In this document: positions 51,403-64,000 of the stretch, piece by piece | Layout: the number at the start of each line of letters is the position of its first letter | How positions within the stretch are numbered: the stretch's first letter is position 1 | Source of the DNA: Nitrospirota bacterium | Lineage (GTDB): Bacteria; Nitrospirota; Nitrospiria; SBBL01; JAADHI01 | NCBI GenBank assembly: GCA_029261165.1 | Contig: JAJDBV010000061.1 | Span: 1-64,000 of the forward strand | Reading direction: 5' to 3' | DNA length: 64,000 bases | The notes under the pieces: model-generated | Told to the model about the DNA's origin: nothing | The model's database searches: none | Seen by the model: the letters and a program-made list of their open reading frames with translations, nothing else | Made by a program: the position numbers and the translations under genes

Positions 51403-52389
51403 TTAACGTTCTGATATATCTTGTGTTTTGTCCGAAGAACTAAATGACCGCTTCACGAACAATCCCTTCACCAGAGCATACAGCATCTGATGCGTCGGGG
51501 TCGGGACATTTACCCTTTTCCCCCGGAGAATGATATCACCGTTCAGGTCATCAATTTCGCTTCGCTTTCCTCTTTTATAATCTTCATACATCGAAGTATG
51601 ATACGCTCTAAACTGGTTCGATGCTGAAATCGTTTCACTGATGGTGTTTGGATTCAGATGAACCCCTTCCGCTGCAGCCACAGCCATTACCTCGGCAATC
51701 CCGCTCCGAACAACTTCTAATAACGGTGGTGAATCTAAAATCAGAGAAAGGGGATAATCAAGAATAACCGATAAGGGGTTGAAGGTTGCATTCCAGCACA
51801 ATTTCTCCCATTTTGCTTTTAGAATATTTTTCCTTAAACGGCAGGAGATCCCTGATTCAGAAAAAATATCATAAATTTGAGTCGCTCGCGCACTGTTTTC
51901 TCCAGATAACTCTCCCAGAGAAATCATCCCTCTTCGGTAATGTTCTATCACTCCGGGAGAGCTCAGTCTGGCCGTGATATATGCCAAGCCCGCGACCACA
52001 CAATCGCGTTTATAATACGACAAGATCTGTTCTTCAGTACTTACCCCGTTTTGGAGCGTTAAAATCACAGCGCCTTTTTCGACAAGCGGCGCAATCTCCT
52101 TCAGCACAGGAAGCAAGTCATAACACTTGACTGCTAAAACAATGAGATCTACTGAGGGTATCTCCGAAACGCTCTGAACCAGGAAGGGATGGACCCAAAA
52201 ATCTCCATGGGCACTCTTTATCGACAGTCCATTTTCAGAAATGTGACCATAGGATCCCGGGCGAACCAAAAAAGTGACATCCGCACCTGCCTTGCAAAGT
52301 GATCCACCAAAATAACCGCCAACGGCCCCTGCCCCAACGAAAAGGATCTTTCTAATATGTCTAGACGGAATCTGACCTGGATCAACCAT
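51403..52389 (-). CDS. panE: 2-dehydropantoate 2-reductase family protein
   Basis: 328 residues. Family enzymes reduce ketopantoate to pantoate with NADPH on the way to coenzyme A. Rossmann motif GAGAVGGYFGGSLCKAG at the N-terminus, VKCYDL with the catalytic lysine, LQNGVSTE, and a C-terminal helical domain with the KAKWEKLCWNATFNPLS region that carries the conserved lysine and asparagine. Related paralogues exist with other substrates, so the symbol is provisional. It is transcribed away from the histone gene. Confidence 0.82.
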   Translation of the reverse strand: MVDPGQIPSRHIRKILFVGAGAVGGYFGGSLCKAGADVTFLVRPGSYGHISENGLSIKSAHGDFWVHPFLVQSVSEIPSVDLIVLAVKCYDLLPVLKEIAPLVEKGAVILTLQNGVSTEEQILSYYKRDCVVAGLAYITARLSSPGVIEHYRRGMISLGELSGENSARATQIYDIFSESGISCRLRKNILKAKWEKLCWNATFNPLSVILDYPLSLILDSPPLLEVVRSGIAEVMAVAAAEGVHLNPNTISETISASNQFRAYHTSMYEDYKRGKRSEIDDLNGDIILRGKRVNVPTPTHQMLYALVKGLFVKRSFSSSDKTQDISER

Positions 52390-52578: not shown

Positions 52579-52607
52579 TTGCACCTCCTTATTTTTTGTG
52601 CTAGGAT
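52579..52607 (+). promoter_or_regulatory. sigma70-type promoter of the histone gene
   Basis: TTGCAC (52579-52584) and TAGGAT (52602-52607), spacer 17 bases. It leaves a leader of about 95 bases. AAAGGAGG lies at optimal distance before the ATG, so strong expression is expected. Confidence 0.65.
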
Positions 52608-52708
52608 TCTCATCACTTTCAGAAACCTTACCCAGTAGGACACAAAGCCCACCTGCTGGACGTGTTCGTCAGAAAGAGAACGCTTACACCGTTTAAAGGA
52701 GGAAATAC

Positions 52709-52891
52709 ATGTCTGACATGTTAGTCGTAAGTTCAAAAATAAAGCGATTTGTTCAGGAAAAGGCCCAATTTAATACATCGAGTGAGTTTTTGTCAGAACT
52801 AAGCCGTCAAGTTGAGAACATTTGCCTTGAAGCGATCGAGAAAACACGGGACAGCAAACGTAAAACCCTGAAAGCACGCGACCTTTCTTAA
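52709..52891 (+). CDS. bacterial histone-fold DNA-binding protein
   Basis: 60 residues that read as a minimal histone fold: helix 1 (SSKIKRFVQEKA, ~8-19), loop, long helix 2 (SSEFLSELSRQVENICLEAI, ~24-46), the loop RKTL (51-54) and a short third helix beginning KARDLS. The stretch RKTLKARDL matches archaeal RKTIKAEDI at the start of helix 3, and the whole pattern VxSKxK-F-x-EK-x-N-T-S-x-x-F recalls the dimeric bacterial histones described in Bdellovibrio and related bacteria, which have a truncated third helix. It should form dimers that bind DNA, perhaps coating it end-on as reported for Bdellovibrio. The start ATG follows AAAGGAGG at ideal spacing. It is a single gene with its own promoter. 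I rate the family call as strong, the in vivo role as open. Confidence 0.88.
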   Translation: MSDMLVVSSKIKRFVQEKAQFNTSSEFLSELSRQVENICLEAIEKTRDSKRKTLKARDLS

Positions 52892-53025: not shown

Positions 53026-54147
53026 TCATTTGGGTTCAGCAAGAAAAACGCAGCCCTTTCCATTTAACTTCGCGCGATACATTGCTTCATCCGCTTGTCT
53101 GATCAGAAGATGACGAATATTGTCATTCGATGACCGCATGTCAATATGATCCCTGATAGAAGACAGTCCAATACTGCATGTCAACCTTCCCTCTATCATA
53201 ACAACCTGCGCTTTGGGATGAATCGGCACGGATGTAAAAGTAAATTTTCGAATCGCGTTGCAAATGGATTCTGCAACATCTACCACTTGATTCAGGCTCG
53301 CCCGGGAGAAGATAATGACAAATTCATCACCCCCATATCGGGCAATCGTCACTCCCTTATGTGAAACCACTTCCCTAAGAATATTGGCGACATCCTGAAG
53401 GACATGGCTTCCGGTCAAATGTCCGAACTCATCATTGATCTCCTTAAAATGATCCATATCCATGAAGAGTAAGACGAGGTCGTCCTTACGCCGTTTTGCC
53501 AAGCGTACCTCTTCGTCCAGTTTCAGATGAAAATACCGATCATTGTAGAGACCTGTAAGGCCGTCTCGTTTTGACATTTCGCTATGTTTTCGAGCGTAGA
53601 GCACATTCTCGATTAAAGTCGATGTATATCCCGCAAAGATCTCCAAAAGTTTTAATTCTTTTTTGGAGTAATACCCTTTATCTTTTCTATTAATTAACTC
53701 AATGACACCGCAAACCGACTGTTCAACAATAATCGGCGCACATATAATCGATCGTGTTCGAAACCGACTTAACTGATCAATCTTGGGGGAAAGATAAGTC
53801 TCCCTTTTAGAAGTTTTGCTCAGGAAGGGCTTTCCATACAAGTAGCTCGCGCCGACAATTCCGGCATTGACCGGAAGTTGAATCCCAACCAGTTTAGAGG
53901 AACCTGCACCGAAACAAGCAACAAAAACAAGTTCGTGGCATTCTGAAGAAAGACTTCTCTTTACTGAATCCTCCAAAAGAATCGATCCCGCTTCCGACGG
54001 AACAAATTGATTTGCCTTTGTAAGGATCTCCTTCAACATCAGATCCAGGCCGGGACCGCCTTGGTCCAATTCGCTCCCCTGGCGATCATAGCTCAGCAAT
54101 AGATTAAGATGCCGGTTATCAAGAAGATGTAGCCTCATAATGAACAA
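53026..54147 (-). CDS. GAF-GGDEF diguanylate cyclase
   Basis: 373 residues, no membrane helix. GAF domain (~30-185) with typical VGIQLPVNAGIVG, RSIICAPI and VIELINRKDKG; GGDEF domain (~192-370) with intact GGDEF (272-276) and metal aspartate D230 in FMDMDHFKEIND. It therefore should make c-di-GMP in response to a GAF ligand. No RxxD inhibitory site is visible before the signature. The start is TTG 54147, chosen for AAAGG six bases upstream; ATG 54138 is an alternative. It is the only GGDEF protein in the window with all catalytic residues. Confidence 0.9.
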   Translation of the reverse strand: MFIMRLHLLDNRHLNLLLSYDRQGSELDQGGPGLDLMLKEILTKANQFVPSEAGSILLEDSVKRSLSSECHELVFVACFGAGSSKLVGIQLPVNAGIVGASYLYGKPFLSKTSKRETYLSPKIDQLSRFRTRSIICAPIIVEQSVCGVIELINRKDKGYYSKKELKLLEIFAGYTSTLIENVLYARKHSEMSKRDGLTGLYNDRYFHLKLDEEVRLAKRRKDDLVLLFMDMDHFKEINDEFGHLTGSHVLQDVANILREVVSHKGVTIARYGGDEFVIIFSRASLNQVVDVAESICNAIRKFTFTSVPIHPKAQVVMIEGRLTCSIGLSSIRDHIDMRSSNDNIRHLLIRQADEAMYRAKLNGKGCVFLAEPK

Positions 54148-59309: not shown

Positions 59310-60482
59310 TTACAAAACCTCGTGCCAGGCATTTAACGACAAGGGCGCATTATTTACGGCATTGCTCAAGGCGATACAACTATATTGGATGGACGAATTC
59401 CCATTTGACTTGATCCTGAAGTTCTCCCCTGTCGGATCTTCAGAAGTATTCGCCAGGAGCACCGCTCCTGTGATCGAGTCATTGCCGTTTGATTTAAAAC
59501 GGTCAAACGACGTATTTCCAGTGATAATAATTAAACCCGTCCAGTTAAAACCACCGTTGAATTCAACTCTACCTTTTTTGGTGGTCTCGCTATTGATAAT
59601 TAAGATCCCATACCCATCGGCATCCCCATTAAATTTAATCCTTGCGTCTTCTCCTGTCATGCTAATGACGGTCACCTCCGGATTCGCTTGCGTTCCCCAG
59701 CTCACATCAGGATTATTCACCTTCTGATCATCCACTAAAATCGTCCGGTCTGCATTCGCTGCAAGTGTGTTGGCAATGGTCTGAACCTCGGTCGGGTTCA
59801 TATCCTCAGGTCGAAGCTGTATGCTCGGGTCCATTCCAATCCCGGTGATGGTCGCACCCCCTTTCACCCGAATCTCGTCGTAGGCGCTCACCGTGTCAAC
59901 GCCCACCCCGGCCTTGTTCTGGGCACAATCGCTTCCGGCCACGGGTGTCTCGCCCGCAGGAAGGTCTCCATTGATCGTGGTATTCCCCTGAAACCTGATC
60001 CGACTAAAACCACCAGAAACGCCCAGCGAGGCATTCACCGGAACCATTGTGGAGACATTTCTCACCTCGGCCTCGATTTTCCTTGTCTCTCCGGAGGGAT
60101 ATTTTCCTGTGGCGGTAACATAGACGGTGTTGTCCGGGGCCAGATTGCCCTTGATGTTCGTTTTGCTTACTTCAATGCTATAGCCTAAGCCCTGAACGCC
60201 ATTGAAATCTGTTACGACGAGCCAGGGCTGGGGGGCAGCCGTGACAACATCAAAGTTTTGTCCTCTCAGGGCCCGCATGGCATGCTGGATACCGGCGTCT
60301 GCCGCATAGAGGGTCTCCGATGCCACGCGTTCGTTGCCTCCCAGCTTCACCTCTGTAGAGGAAAGCATGATGCCGGCCAAACCAAGCGCGGTCACCATCA
60401 CCAATATCAGCAACGAAACCACCAGGGCCATGCCTTTCTGGTTACAATGAAGTTTATGTAGATTGATCTCCTTAATTTTCAT
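59310..60482 (-). CDS. PilX-like minor pilin, copy 1 (riboswitch-controlled)
   Basis: 390 residues from ATG 60482 (GGAGG with 7-base spacing; a TTG at 60488 is in frame). N-terminus of the PilX family: NQKGMALVVSLLILVMVTALGLAGIM, a class III-like signal with GMALVV, then STEVKLGGNERVASETLYAADAG. The long C-terminal part (150-390) is a beta-helix-like domain with many asparagine/glycine turns and cysteines. PilX-type pilins prime type IV pilus assembly. Paralogue of the protein at 60779. A c-di-GMP riboswitch and terminator lie in its leader. Confidence 0.84.
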   Translation of the reverse strand: MKIKEINLHKLHCNQKGMALVVSLLILVMVTALGLAGIMLSSTEVKLGGNERVASETLYAADAGIQHAMRALRGQNFDVVTAAPQPWLVVTDFNGVQGLGYSIEVSKTNIKGNLAPDNTVYVTATGKYPSGETRKIEAEVRNVSTMVPVNASLGVSGGFSRIRFQGNTTINGDLPAGETPVAGSDCAQNKAGVGVDTVSAYDEIRVKGGATITGIGMDPSIQLRPEDMNPTEVQTIANTLAANADRTILVDDQKVNNPDVSWGTQANPEVTVISMTGEDARIKFNGDADGYGILIINSETTKKGRVEFNGGFNWTGLIIITGNTSFDRFKSNGNDSITGAVLLANTSEDPTGENFRIKSNGNSSIQYSCIALSNAVNNAPLSLNAWHEVL

Positions 60483-60552
60483 AGTCAACCCTCCTATATC
60501 TTGCGAGGGACCTTTTCAACGGATAACATCTACGATGAGACGCTTCCGCACC

Positions 60553-60587
60553 AAATAAAAAGGCCCATTTCTACTAAGAAATGGGCC
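60553..60587 (-). terminator. intrinsic terminator of the c-di-GMP riboswitch
   Basis: On the - strand an 11-bp perfect stem AGAAATGGGCC/GGCCCATTTCT reading 60587 to 60562 with a 4-base loop, followed by TTTTTATTT. About 40 bases downstream of the aptamer and 70 before PilX copy 1. Confidence 0.9.
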
Positions 60588-60627
60588 ACCATTGTTATCA
60601 TAAACCACCCTCATCGGATGGTTCTCC

Positions 60628-60715
60628 AGGCGGCCCAACCGGCATGCCTTCTAAACACATAAAGGCGAAACCTTGTGACTTTGCGTCCCGGTCTTTCGAC
60701 CGGTTTGCCTTTTTC
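60628..60715 (-). promoter_or_regulatory. GEMM-I (cyclic di-GMP) riboswitch aptamer
   Basis: On the - strand: GGCAAACC (60709-60702), a 6-bp stem CCGGTC/GACCGG capped by a GAAA tetraloop, then GGGACGCAAAG (60689-60679), then the second-helix region with GGCATGCCGGTTGGGCC (60651-60635). These are the invariant parts of class I c-di-GMP riboswitches, including the tetraloop that docks into the second helix. The base equivalent to G20 of the Vc2 aptamer, which sets ligand choice, is G (AGGCAAACC), so c-di-GMP, not cGAMP, is the expected ligand. A terminator follows. Borders are approximate. Confidence 0.9.
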
Positions 60716-60778
60716 TAGAAAGATCTCAGAAAATTACGCTAAATAAATCCTTTCTTATGTAATAAACTGATGAATCAA

Positions 60779-61978
60779 TTACAATATCTGGTGCCAGGCG
60801 TTAAGCGACAAGGGCGCCTTGTTCATGGCATTGGTCAAGGCGGTACAGCTATATTGGATGGTGGTGGCCGCCTCTACCCTGAACCTCAAATCCTCCGCCG
60901 AAGCATCGGGTTCTGTATTGGCAATAATCACTCCCCCGGTAATGCTGGTACCGGCAGTGCCATCAAACTCGATTCGGGTCGAGCCGGTAATGATAATAAT
61001 ACCATCCCATGAGAATGAATCTCCGAATTCAATCCTTCCTTTCCTGTCAATATTGCTGTTCAGGATCAGGATACCGGCTCCGGTCACCGTTCCATTGAAG
61101 CGAACCCTTGAGTCATCCCCTTCCATATTGAAGACCGTCACCTGCGGATTGGCGACAGTCCCGTAGGTCGTATTCGTGTTGATCTCCGCTGTCGTGTCAT
61201 TTACCGCGATGGTCCGGTCTGCATTTGTTGCAAGATCGCTTGAAAGAGCCTGAATTGCCGCCGCAGACATGTCCTGCGGCCGCAATTGAACACTCGGCGT
61301 CAAACCCATCCCGGTGATGCTTTGACCGCCGCCATCGAGTCTGATCTCATCGTAGGCACTCACCGTGTCTACGGCCACGGCTGCCTTATTTTGCGCACAG
61401 TCGCTCCCCGCGACAGGGACCTCGCCGCCGGAAAGGTCTCCATTGACGGTAACATTATCTTCGAACCTAATCTCGCTGTCGTTTCCCACAACACCCAGAG
61501 TGGAAGTGACCGGCACCATTGTGGAGAGATTTCTCACCTCGGCCTCAATCCTCTTGAGTCCCCCACCGCTTGGATAAGTCGCCGTCGCCGTGATAAAGAC
61601 CGTGTTGGCCGGGGCAATATCGCCATTGGTGTTTATTTTTTTAACATCGACAAAATAGTTTAACCCTGGGGTTCCATTGAAATTCGTTACATTAAGCCAA
61701 GGCTGGGGGGAAGCCGTGACAATATCAAAATCTTGTCCTCTCAAGGCCCGAAGGGCATGCTGTATGCCGGCGTCTGCTGCATAGAGGGTCTCCGCCCCCA
61801 CGCGTTCGTTGCCTCCCAGCTTCACCTCTGTAGAAGAGGCCATGATCCCGGCCAAACCAAGCGCAGTAATCATCACCAATATCAATAGCGAGACCACCAG
61901 GGCCACGCCTCTCTGATTAAGAGGGCGTCGGAGGATGTTCTGCCCAACGATCTCTCTATTTTTCTCGATGTCTTTCAT
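60779..61978 (-). CDS. PilX-like minor pilin, copy 2
   Basis: 399 residues, parallel in layout to copy 1: RGVALVVSLLILVMITALGLAGIMASSTEVKLGG at the N-terminus, AADAGIQHALRALRGQDF, then a beta-helix-like C-terminal region with TTYGTVANPQVTVFNMEGDDSRVRFNGT and ending LSLNAWHQIL. It is clearly a paralogue of copy 1 (tandem duplication, diverged). It lies 35 bases downstream of the large secreted protein on the same strand and upstream of the c-di-GMP riboswitch. Type IV pilus assembly or adhesion role inferred from the family. Confidence 0.82.
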   Translation of the reverse strand: MKDIEKNREIVGQNILRRPLNQRGVALVVSLLILVMITALGLAGIMASSTEVKLGGNERVGAETLYAADAGIQHALRALRGQDFDIVTASPQPWLNVTNFNGTPGLNYFVDVKKINTNGDIAPANTVFITATATYPSGGGLKRIEAEVRNLSTMVPVTSTLGVVGNDSEIRFEDNVTVNGDLSGGEVPVAGSDCAQNKAAVAVDTVSAYDEIRLDGGGQSITGMGLTPSVQLRPQDMSAAAIQALSSDLATNADRTIAVNDTTAEINTNTTYGTVANPQVTVFNMEGDDSRVRFNGTVTGAGILILNSNIDRKGRIEFGDSFSWDGIIIITGSTRIEFDGTAGTSITGGVIIANTEPDASAEDLRFRVEAATTIQYSCTALTNAMNKAPLSLNAWHQIL

Positions 61979-62013
61979 CGTCTACCTCCATCAAATCATC
62001 ATGATTCTTTATT

Positions 62014-64000
62014 TTAAGGATTGTAGATCCTGGAAATTGTTGTTTTATTGCCGCACCGGTCCGTCGCAGTAACCTTGAGGGTATGGTTCAGACCTCCGCT
62101 GGTCGATTGATACGATTCCGAGTAGACGTCCGGTGAAATCTCTGTCATCGTCGTCGGCGGTATCCCGATAAACCCGGTCACCTCAAGGCTGACATCCTGA
62201 AGGCCGACGACAGAGGAAGAGGCAGTCACTTCAACATCGACATTGCCGGAAACCGGCCCGGCGGCCGGTGTTGGAGGAGAATTAAACGAAAGTGACGGGC
62301 CGACGGTGTCACACTGAGCATAAGTGTAGGCGCCGGTTTCGGGCAGGATATCAAAGTTGCCCTCTGTATCAATCGTCTCCAGATAATACCAAACCCTCGA
62401 TGCCGTACTCATAGCGGGGATGCTTCCTGACCATGACCCCTTAGAGGCAATCACCGTTCCTAAGTTCAAGGGAATAGGATTGGGATAACTGACGCCGCCC
62501 TCCGTTGATGAGGGACGTGTCGGCGGTGTCGTACTGGTGAATGCATCAATCGCATAATGAATCTTCACCGAGTTGACCGAATAAGACGGGTTCGCGGTCG
62601 CATCGTCGACAGCAGTCGAGAGACCGACCAGCTTCCCGGGTGCAACATAGGAGGTGATCGTCGGGACGGTACTCGGGAGTGTGCTGGCCGCAGGTTGATC
62701 CTGAAAAGTGGTACTCTTCACAAACTGCGGACCCTGTGAAATTCTCTGCGATGCCAGGGTGGCAGAACAGACAAAAGAAGCATCTAGGGTATCCCGGGTC
62801 ATGAATCCTCCGGACACCGTCACCCCGCGCATATCAATACTCGCCGGAATTGTATTCACATTACTGGTAAAGGTCAGTCTTAACGTGGCCGTCCCGCCAT
62901 TTGCAGAAACTGTGGGGACAACACTAAAGACCACGACCGTACCGCTCCCTGTTTCAACCGGTGGAACAGTCGTTAGATTGGTGTCTTCAAAAAGAACCAG
63001 GGCCGGACTTGCGATTTCAACCTTTTTCAAGAAGGCCAAGGTATTTCCCCATTTCAGGAGCATATGCGTGATGTCCAGATTCTTGTCGGGGTGTGTGTTC
63101 TTGATTCCCAAATCCACGATATGATGGGTGTCATCCGGGGTTGAGATATTCGTCGTCGTCACCACGGCATCATCAAACTCAATTCCGCCGGTCCTGATCG
63201 TTAAAGGGATCGTGTTTTCTGCCGTATATTGCTCGCCGTCAACGGCCCTGACTCTAAAATCGTAATCCCCTGAACAGAACTTCCCCGTGTCAATGTCGAC
63301 GCTCGTCAGCGGATAAAATGGGAAATGATAATAATTGTCACTACTTCTAGGGGCGAGGTCTGAGGCCCCACCGCTTCCATAGGCAACGTCCGCCGGCGTG
63401 TTGGTCGGGTCGCCTGCTTTGTTGATGAAAAAGTCGACCTTGGCCCCTGTGGAAACGGTCACATAAGTGGGAGGGTCACTGTAATCAAAGCCCTGCCGAT
63501 CAAAATTACTCGAATCGGGAGTGCAATCAAGAGGATCGACCACCCAGGTAATATAACGGCTGCCCGGGACAAAATCCGGGTCGCTCGCGGCATTCGGATC
63601 GGTTCCAATGACTGTTCTTCCGGAGAGAAAGTCAATTGGCGTTCCTGTCGGTGTAAGTCCTGGATAAATTTTATTTCCCCCCCGAACGATGCCGGTGCCC
63701 GTCGTCCATTGAATCCTGGGGGCACAGGCCGCAGTCGAGATACTGCTGATCGTGCTGTCTGCGGCATCGCCGCAATCATCGGGAGGGGCCGCATCAATCG
63801 CAGAAACCTTGATGTCGTAAACGGTCGTCCCCATCAAACCAATCAGGATGGTCTGTCCGGTAGCGGGTAAAGTTCTCGAGGTCAGATCAATTGTCTCATA
63901 CGTGGTCCAGAGAGTGTCTGTGTCCTTCTTGTAATAGACCTTTAAAAGGGCCGGGGTACTGTGGGTATTCACATCAGGCGCGGGCACCAACCAATCGACG
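62014..64000 (-). CDS. large secreted protein with Ig/fibronectin-like repeats (5' truncated)
   Basis: At least 660 residues; the frame continues past the right edge of the window, and the first methionine seen at 63990 is a TTG inside the frame. The visible part consists of several beta-sandwich-like modules of ~90 residues: one at the start (YKKDTDTLWTTYETIDLTS...VYDIKVSAID, fibronectin-type look), a central one (AENTIPLTIRTGGIEFDD), and two final ones ending GLNHTLKVTATDRCGNKTT. Low-complexity threonine/serine-rich linkers lie between. Probably an exported surface protein, perhaps the PilY-type or PilW-type partner of the downstream PilX genes, but no pilin signature is visible in this part. 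Confidence 0.6.
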   Translation of the reverse strand, partial: VDWLVPAPDVNTHSTPALLKVYYKKDTDTLWTTYETIDLTSRTLPATGQTILIGLMGTTVYDIKVSAIDAAPPDDCGDAADSTISSISTAACAPRIQWTTGTGIVRGGNKIYPGLTPTGTPIDFLSGRTVIGTDPNAASDPDFVPGSRYITWVVDPLDCTPDSSNFDRQGFDYSDPPTYVTVSTGAKVDFFINKAGDPTNTPADVAYGSGGASDLAPRSSDNYYHFPFYPLTSVDIDTGKFCSGDYDFRVRAVDGEQYTAENTIPLTIRTGGIEFDDAVVTTTNISTPDDTHHIVDLGIKNTHPDKNLDITHMLLKWGNTLAFLKKVEIASPALVLFEDTNLTTVPPVETGSGTVVVFSVVPTVSANGGTATLRLTFTSNVNTIPASIDMRGVTVSGGFMTRDTLDASFVCSATLASQRISQGPQFVKSTTFQDQPAASTLPSTVPTITSYVAPGKLVGLSTAVDDATANPSYSVNSVKIHYAIDAFTSTTPPTRPSSTEGGVSYPNPIPLNLGTVIASKGSWSGSIPAMSTASRVWYYLETIDTEGNFDILPETGAYTYAQCDTVGPSLSFNSPPTPAAGPVSGNVDVEVTASSSVVGLQDVSLEVTGFIGIPPTTMTEISPDVYSESYQSTSGGLNHTLKVTATDRCGNKTTISRIYNP

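Follow-up and report, generated by a model that had tools for sequence, protein, structure and literature searches.

The 64,000-nucleotide stretch of Nitrospirota DNA analysed here (hereafter referred to as the window) encodes a 60-residue protein, MSDMLVVSSKIKRFVQEKAQFNTSSEFLSELSRQVENICLEAIEKTRDSKRKTLKARDLS, that is almost certainly an alpha-3 histone of the HBb class, the bacterial dimers. The gene and the features discussed below are located as follows:

52709–52891, + strand: predicted HBb-type (bacterial dimer, alpha-3) histone gene, from the ATG at 52709 to the TAA ending at 52891, 60 amino acids plus stop
52695–52702, + strand: Shine-Dalgarno sequence AAAGGAGG, ending 6 nt before the ATG
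52781–52852, + strand: codons of the long central helix alpha-2 (residues 25–48) predicted in the AF2 model
52859–52882, + strand: RKTLKARD motif (residues 51–58), with, by comparison with HBb, the RD clamp R51/D58 and the KT DNA contacts of loop 2
51403–52389, − strand: putative ketopantoate-reductase-like divergent neighbour, outside the histone system
53026–54147, − strand: putative GAF-GGDEF-like convergent neighbour, outside the histone system

The histone gene stands alone between the two oppositely oriented neighbours. A preliminary description of this DNA had assigned it its own ribosome binding site, and this is borne out by the position of AAAGGAGG and by the purine-rich Shine-Dalgarno sequences found at the equivalent place in its orthologs, where strong ones are common. 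The neighbourhood is kept within families and differs between them. In three relatives of the same family (L002–L004), too, the GAF-GGDEF-like gene adjoins the histone gene, and the adjoining genes, as read from their sequences, encode a GGDEF protein (part of family f1), a DEAD-box-like helicase (f5), an M16-type peptidase (f10) and a rho-like protein (f11). Comparison of the ortholog neighbourhoods revealed no operon partner conserved across families; since the neighbours change, no partner gene is implied. Further along the window, two related PilX-like, prepilin-type proteins appear to be encoded in tandem (59310–60488 and 60779–61978, − strand), adjoined by a large surface-type ORF (the group spanning 59310–63990, − strand).

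The preliminary description had proposed matches to histone profiles as a check, and these were obtained, at scores below both curated cut-offs: 19.5 bits for PF00808 (E 0.0012; cut-off 21.4 bits) and 22.6 bits for NF043032 (E 1e-4; cut-off 50 bits). HMM cut-offs alone would therefore miss the window histone. Similarly, a PF00808 search of the window genome returned nothing at E 0.001, which reflects a limit of the profile and not the absence of a histone. I also searched all PDB sequences with phmmer, for which the top matches were structures of HBb, also called Bd0055, from Bdellovibrio bacteriovorus (8fvx, E 1.7e-13; 8cmp, E 1.9e-13). The two proteins align without gaps over residues 1–59, with 44% identity. 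Weaker matches were to HLp (E 3.7e-4), HTkC (E 4.2e-4), HmvA (E 5.1e-4) and HMfB (E 0.44 only).

A structural model was generated with AF2, using 20 orthologs as input. It possesses helices at residues 2–19, 25–48 and 56–59 with a mean pLDDT of 84.4, and its confidence is moderate (pTM 0.57; mean pLDDT across the five models 64.8 to 84.4). Helix 3, residues 56–59, is a single turn. When the model was compared to the PDB with Foldseek, HBb chains took ranks 1–5 (probability 1.00, TM about 0.72), followed by HTkC and HLp, and then by eukaryotic nucleosome chains. Bacterial dimers of the alpha-3 type are delineated by a single histone fold whose helix 3 is truncated to 3–4 residues; the window protein groups with HBb, and has both the one-turn helix 3 and the RKTxxxD motif with its RD clamp. 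The bacterial dimer category is defined by sequence clustering, and the window protein was placed in it by phmmer E-values. With HMfB and the archaeal nucleosomal histones (1a7w) it shares the histone fold and the RxTxxxxD motif, but it differs from them in its poor match to HMfB and in its helix 3, one turn against about 10 residues in HMfB; neither the PF00808 and NF043032 cut-offs nor a full-length helix 3, which mark the archaeal nucleosomal class, are reached.

HLp from Leptospira perolatii (9qt0) and HTkC from Thermococcus kodakarensis (9f2c) belong to the same alpha-3 superfamily, resemble the window protein in the truncated histone fold and the clamp region, and are its next best structural matches after HBb. 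It is conceivable on these grounds that the window protein forms a face-to-face (FtF) tetramer wrapping about 60 bp of DNA, as Leptospira HLp does. However, HBb is matched with an E-value about 1e9-fold stronger than HLp or HTkC, and the residue pair of the FtF tetramer, R48/N52 (PMC11390915), is absent: in the HLp alignment, its positions correspond to K45 and S49. A Leptospira-type tetramer is therefore very unlikely.

The likeness to HBb (PDB 8fvx, 8cmp, 9ezz, 9f0e) extends from length, gapless alignment and the one-turn helix 3 to individual residues. HBb contacts DNA through T8, S9, K10, K12, K16, N22, T23, S24, K52, T53 and R57 (PMC11317129); the window protein has the identical residue at 9 of the 11, with T8 conservatively replaced by S, and K16 by Q. 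The R51–D58 clamp of HBb (PMC11317129) and the RKT motif are both retained, and the positions through which HBb chains pair, V11, L31, I35, L38 and I59 (PMC11317129), are I11, L31, V35, I38 and L59, all hydrophobic. The pI (9.4) and the charge (+2.5) are also similar to those of HBb. On the other hand, HBb belongs to another phylum, its D49 is S in the window protein, and among class members the window protein has the lowest identity to it (44%, against up to 63%). Across the 20 orthologs, M1, V7, S9, K10, K18, T23, S24, L31, S32, E36, A42, R51, K52, T53, K55, R57 and D58 are invariant; by comparison with HBb, these are for the most part positions of DNA contact, clamp or core. The dimeric, HBb-type bacterial histone put forward in the preliminary description is thus supported by sequence, fold model and residue conservation alike.

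From this conservation with HBb, I infer that the window histone dimerises, binds DNA and bends it. Two 60-residue chains would pair through their central helices, forming a histone handshake dimer, which would grip the DNA backbone at the minor groove without sequence preference. The predicted grip involves loop 1 (N22, T23, S24), loop 2 (K52, T53), R57 and, at the beginning of helix 1, S8, S9, K10 and K12. The bound dimer would then bend the DNA, aiding HU/IHF-type proteins in compacting the chromosome. Binding to DNA, with bending as the main mode of action, is probable; against this proposal stands the replacement by Q of K16, one of the three helix-1 lysines of HBb. The other two, K10 and K12, are kept, and position 16 varies between A, K, Q, R and S across the class. 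It was first proposed for Bd0055 that such dimers, side by side, coat straight DNA in a filament without bending it (PMC10627809), the reading also taken in the preliminary description, and every residue of the loop1–loop2 interface is retained in the window protein. However, a later study of HBb (PMC11317129), which drew on biophysics, simulations and two crystal forms, describes single dimers that bend DNA, and of the helix-1 contacts that support bending, S9 and K10 are invariant in the class and K12 is nearly so. Coating is accordingly an unlikely mode of action for the window histone.

Of the 270 genomes searched in the window's class, Nitrospiria, 26 carry the gene, in seven families (f1, f2, f5, f7, f10, f11 and f12), and the orthologs of the 25 other genomes are 59–62 residues long; one ortholog lies in record MHEO01000029.1, from Nitrospirae bacterium RIFCSPHIGHO2_01_FULL_66_17, and the f5 genomes measure 4.2–5.2 Mb. 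Among the families listed for the class, the large families f6, f13 and f14 yielded no ortholog. Among 396 genomes sampled evenly across the phylum, 17 were positive, every one of them a member of the window's class. The gene is under strong purifying selection, with dN of 0.00–0.05 against dS of 0.15–0.75 in six close ortholog pairs (dS below 1), and dN of 0.03–0.12 with dS of 1.4–2.1 in more distant pairs. The ORF is short and its G+C content is low (0.40, against about 0.48), as might be expected of a chance ORF or a decaying gene; this explanation was rejected, as its probability is negligible in view of the conserved length and Shine-Dalgarno sequence of the orthologs in 25 other genomes and of dN being much smaller than dS.

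A search of phage and plasmid records for a mobile origin gave no match to the histone. In the tree, built on 60 columns, too few to trace the origin, just small genus-level groups hold. Three Aenigmatarchaeota proteins of about 55 residues (L030, L031 and L032) possess a C-terminal RKTLKARD and are 37–41% identical to the window histone; in the tree, they group with the archaeal HTkC.

Every one of the 98 relatives searched has HU/IHF family proteins (PF00216), and the window genome gives 8 matches. A role for the histone as a replacement for HU was rejected on these counts; it is an addition, and with so many HU/IHF-type genes in the window genome it need not be a major organiser. One may ask instead whether its fold serves a local job, as a regulator or as part of a protein complex, and not genome organisation. 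The ubiquity of HU/IHF-type proteins in these relatives would fit this, as would the majority of class genomes that do without the histone. However, few positions are as conserved as the DNA-contact residues, no partner gene is conserved across families, and its closest relative, HBb, tops the nucleoid fraction of its host in abundance (PMC10627809). A purely local job is thus improbable.

HBb-type histones can be abundant, Bd0055 ranking 12 of 2,125 proteins in Bdellovibrio (PMC10627809). For the window histone, the near-consensus promoter claimed in the preliminary description was not recovered: scanning the + strand ahead of the ATG for sigma-70-like sites gave none, and the sole + strand match of the scan starts inside the histone gene, at 52713. 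A looser search gave the following best candidate:

52579–52607, + strand: promoter candidate TTGCAC-17-TAGGAT with TG extension, boxes at 52579 and 52602

This matches the consensus at 7 of 12 positions plus the extended TG, a score attained by 57.5% of shuffles in a comparison covering eight loci; the candidate is no better than chance, and is unproven as a promoter. By eye, TTGAC...TATAAT-like sequences can be seen for the f10 orthologs, but not in the window. Codon usage is uninformative on expression of the histone, because the ribosomal genes of the window genome show almost no codon bias distinct from that of other genes.

The window genome encodes a second histone, a 181-residue protein on another contig (G000:C84, L061:8236-8781:-). 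Over its C-terminal 60 residues, this protein is 43% identical to the window histone (E 8e-10). Its N-terminus is rich in Cys and His (C17, C20, C33, C38, C48, C52, H56, H62), in a spacing that agrees at 7 of 8 positions with that of the ZZ histone D0LYE7 (C20, C23, C36, C41, C51, C53, H59, H65; PMC11390915), and Pfam did not recognise this N-terminal domain. The protein is probably a zinc-finger (‘ZZ’) histone. ZZ histones (Schwab et al. 2024, PMC11390915) possess a histone domain resembling the bacterial dimers; the window protein, in contrast, lacks the zinc-finger domain, its ORF beginning at the histone fold. Among the 270 class genomes, the ZZ-like histone is confined to the window genome. 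The tetranucleotide composition of C84 fits that genome, and contamination, though possible, is therefore not indicated. That the dimer and ZZ histones pair, yielding a bacterial chromatin in which histone subunits are interchangeable and HU is also present, is a speculative and quite improbable suggestion.

Also on C84, near the ZZ histone gene, lies a gene for a large multicopper-oxidase-like protein (L061:157-5867, + strand), followed by three related, secreted-looking proteins in a row, of about 320 residues each; from their sequences, this cluster is possibly involved in metal oxidation. Only one other of the 270 class genomes, G015, has a second histone match. This extra copy, L027 (G015:C307:4450-4626:-), is dimer-like, is interrupted by an in-frame TAG that follows residue 32, and comes from a fragmented f5 assembly; it is either a pseudogene or an artefact of assembly or contamination.

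HBb, HLp and 17 groups of prokaryotic histones have already been published, and bacterial dimers are listed for Bdellovibrionota, Elusimicrobiota, Spirochaetota, Planctomycetota, Myxococcota_A and Chlamydiota (PMC11390915). The string ‘nitrospir’ is absent from the main texts of the histone papers examined, including PMC11317129, PMC10627809 and PMC11390915, whose supplementary tables may list members, and a literature search combining the histone fold with Nitrospirota found no paper. The window protein thus extends HBb-type histones to Nitrospirota, a phylum unnamed in the main texts of these histone papers, and illustrates that proteins of this type can be missed by curated HMM cut-offs. 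Within a single class, the gene is patchily kept yet strongly conserved, and since it is present in some and absent from others among close relatives that all possess HU, the gain or loss of a histone can be tested here by comparison.
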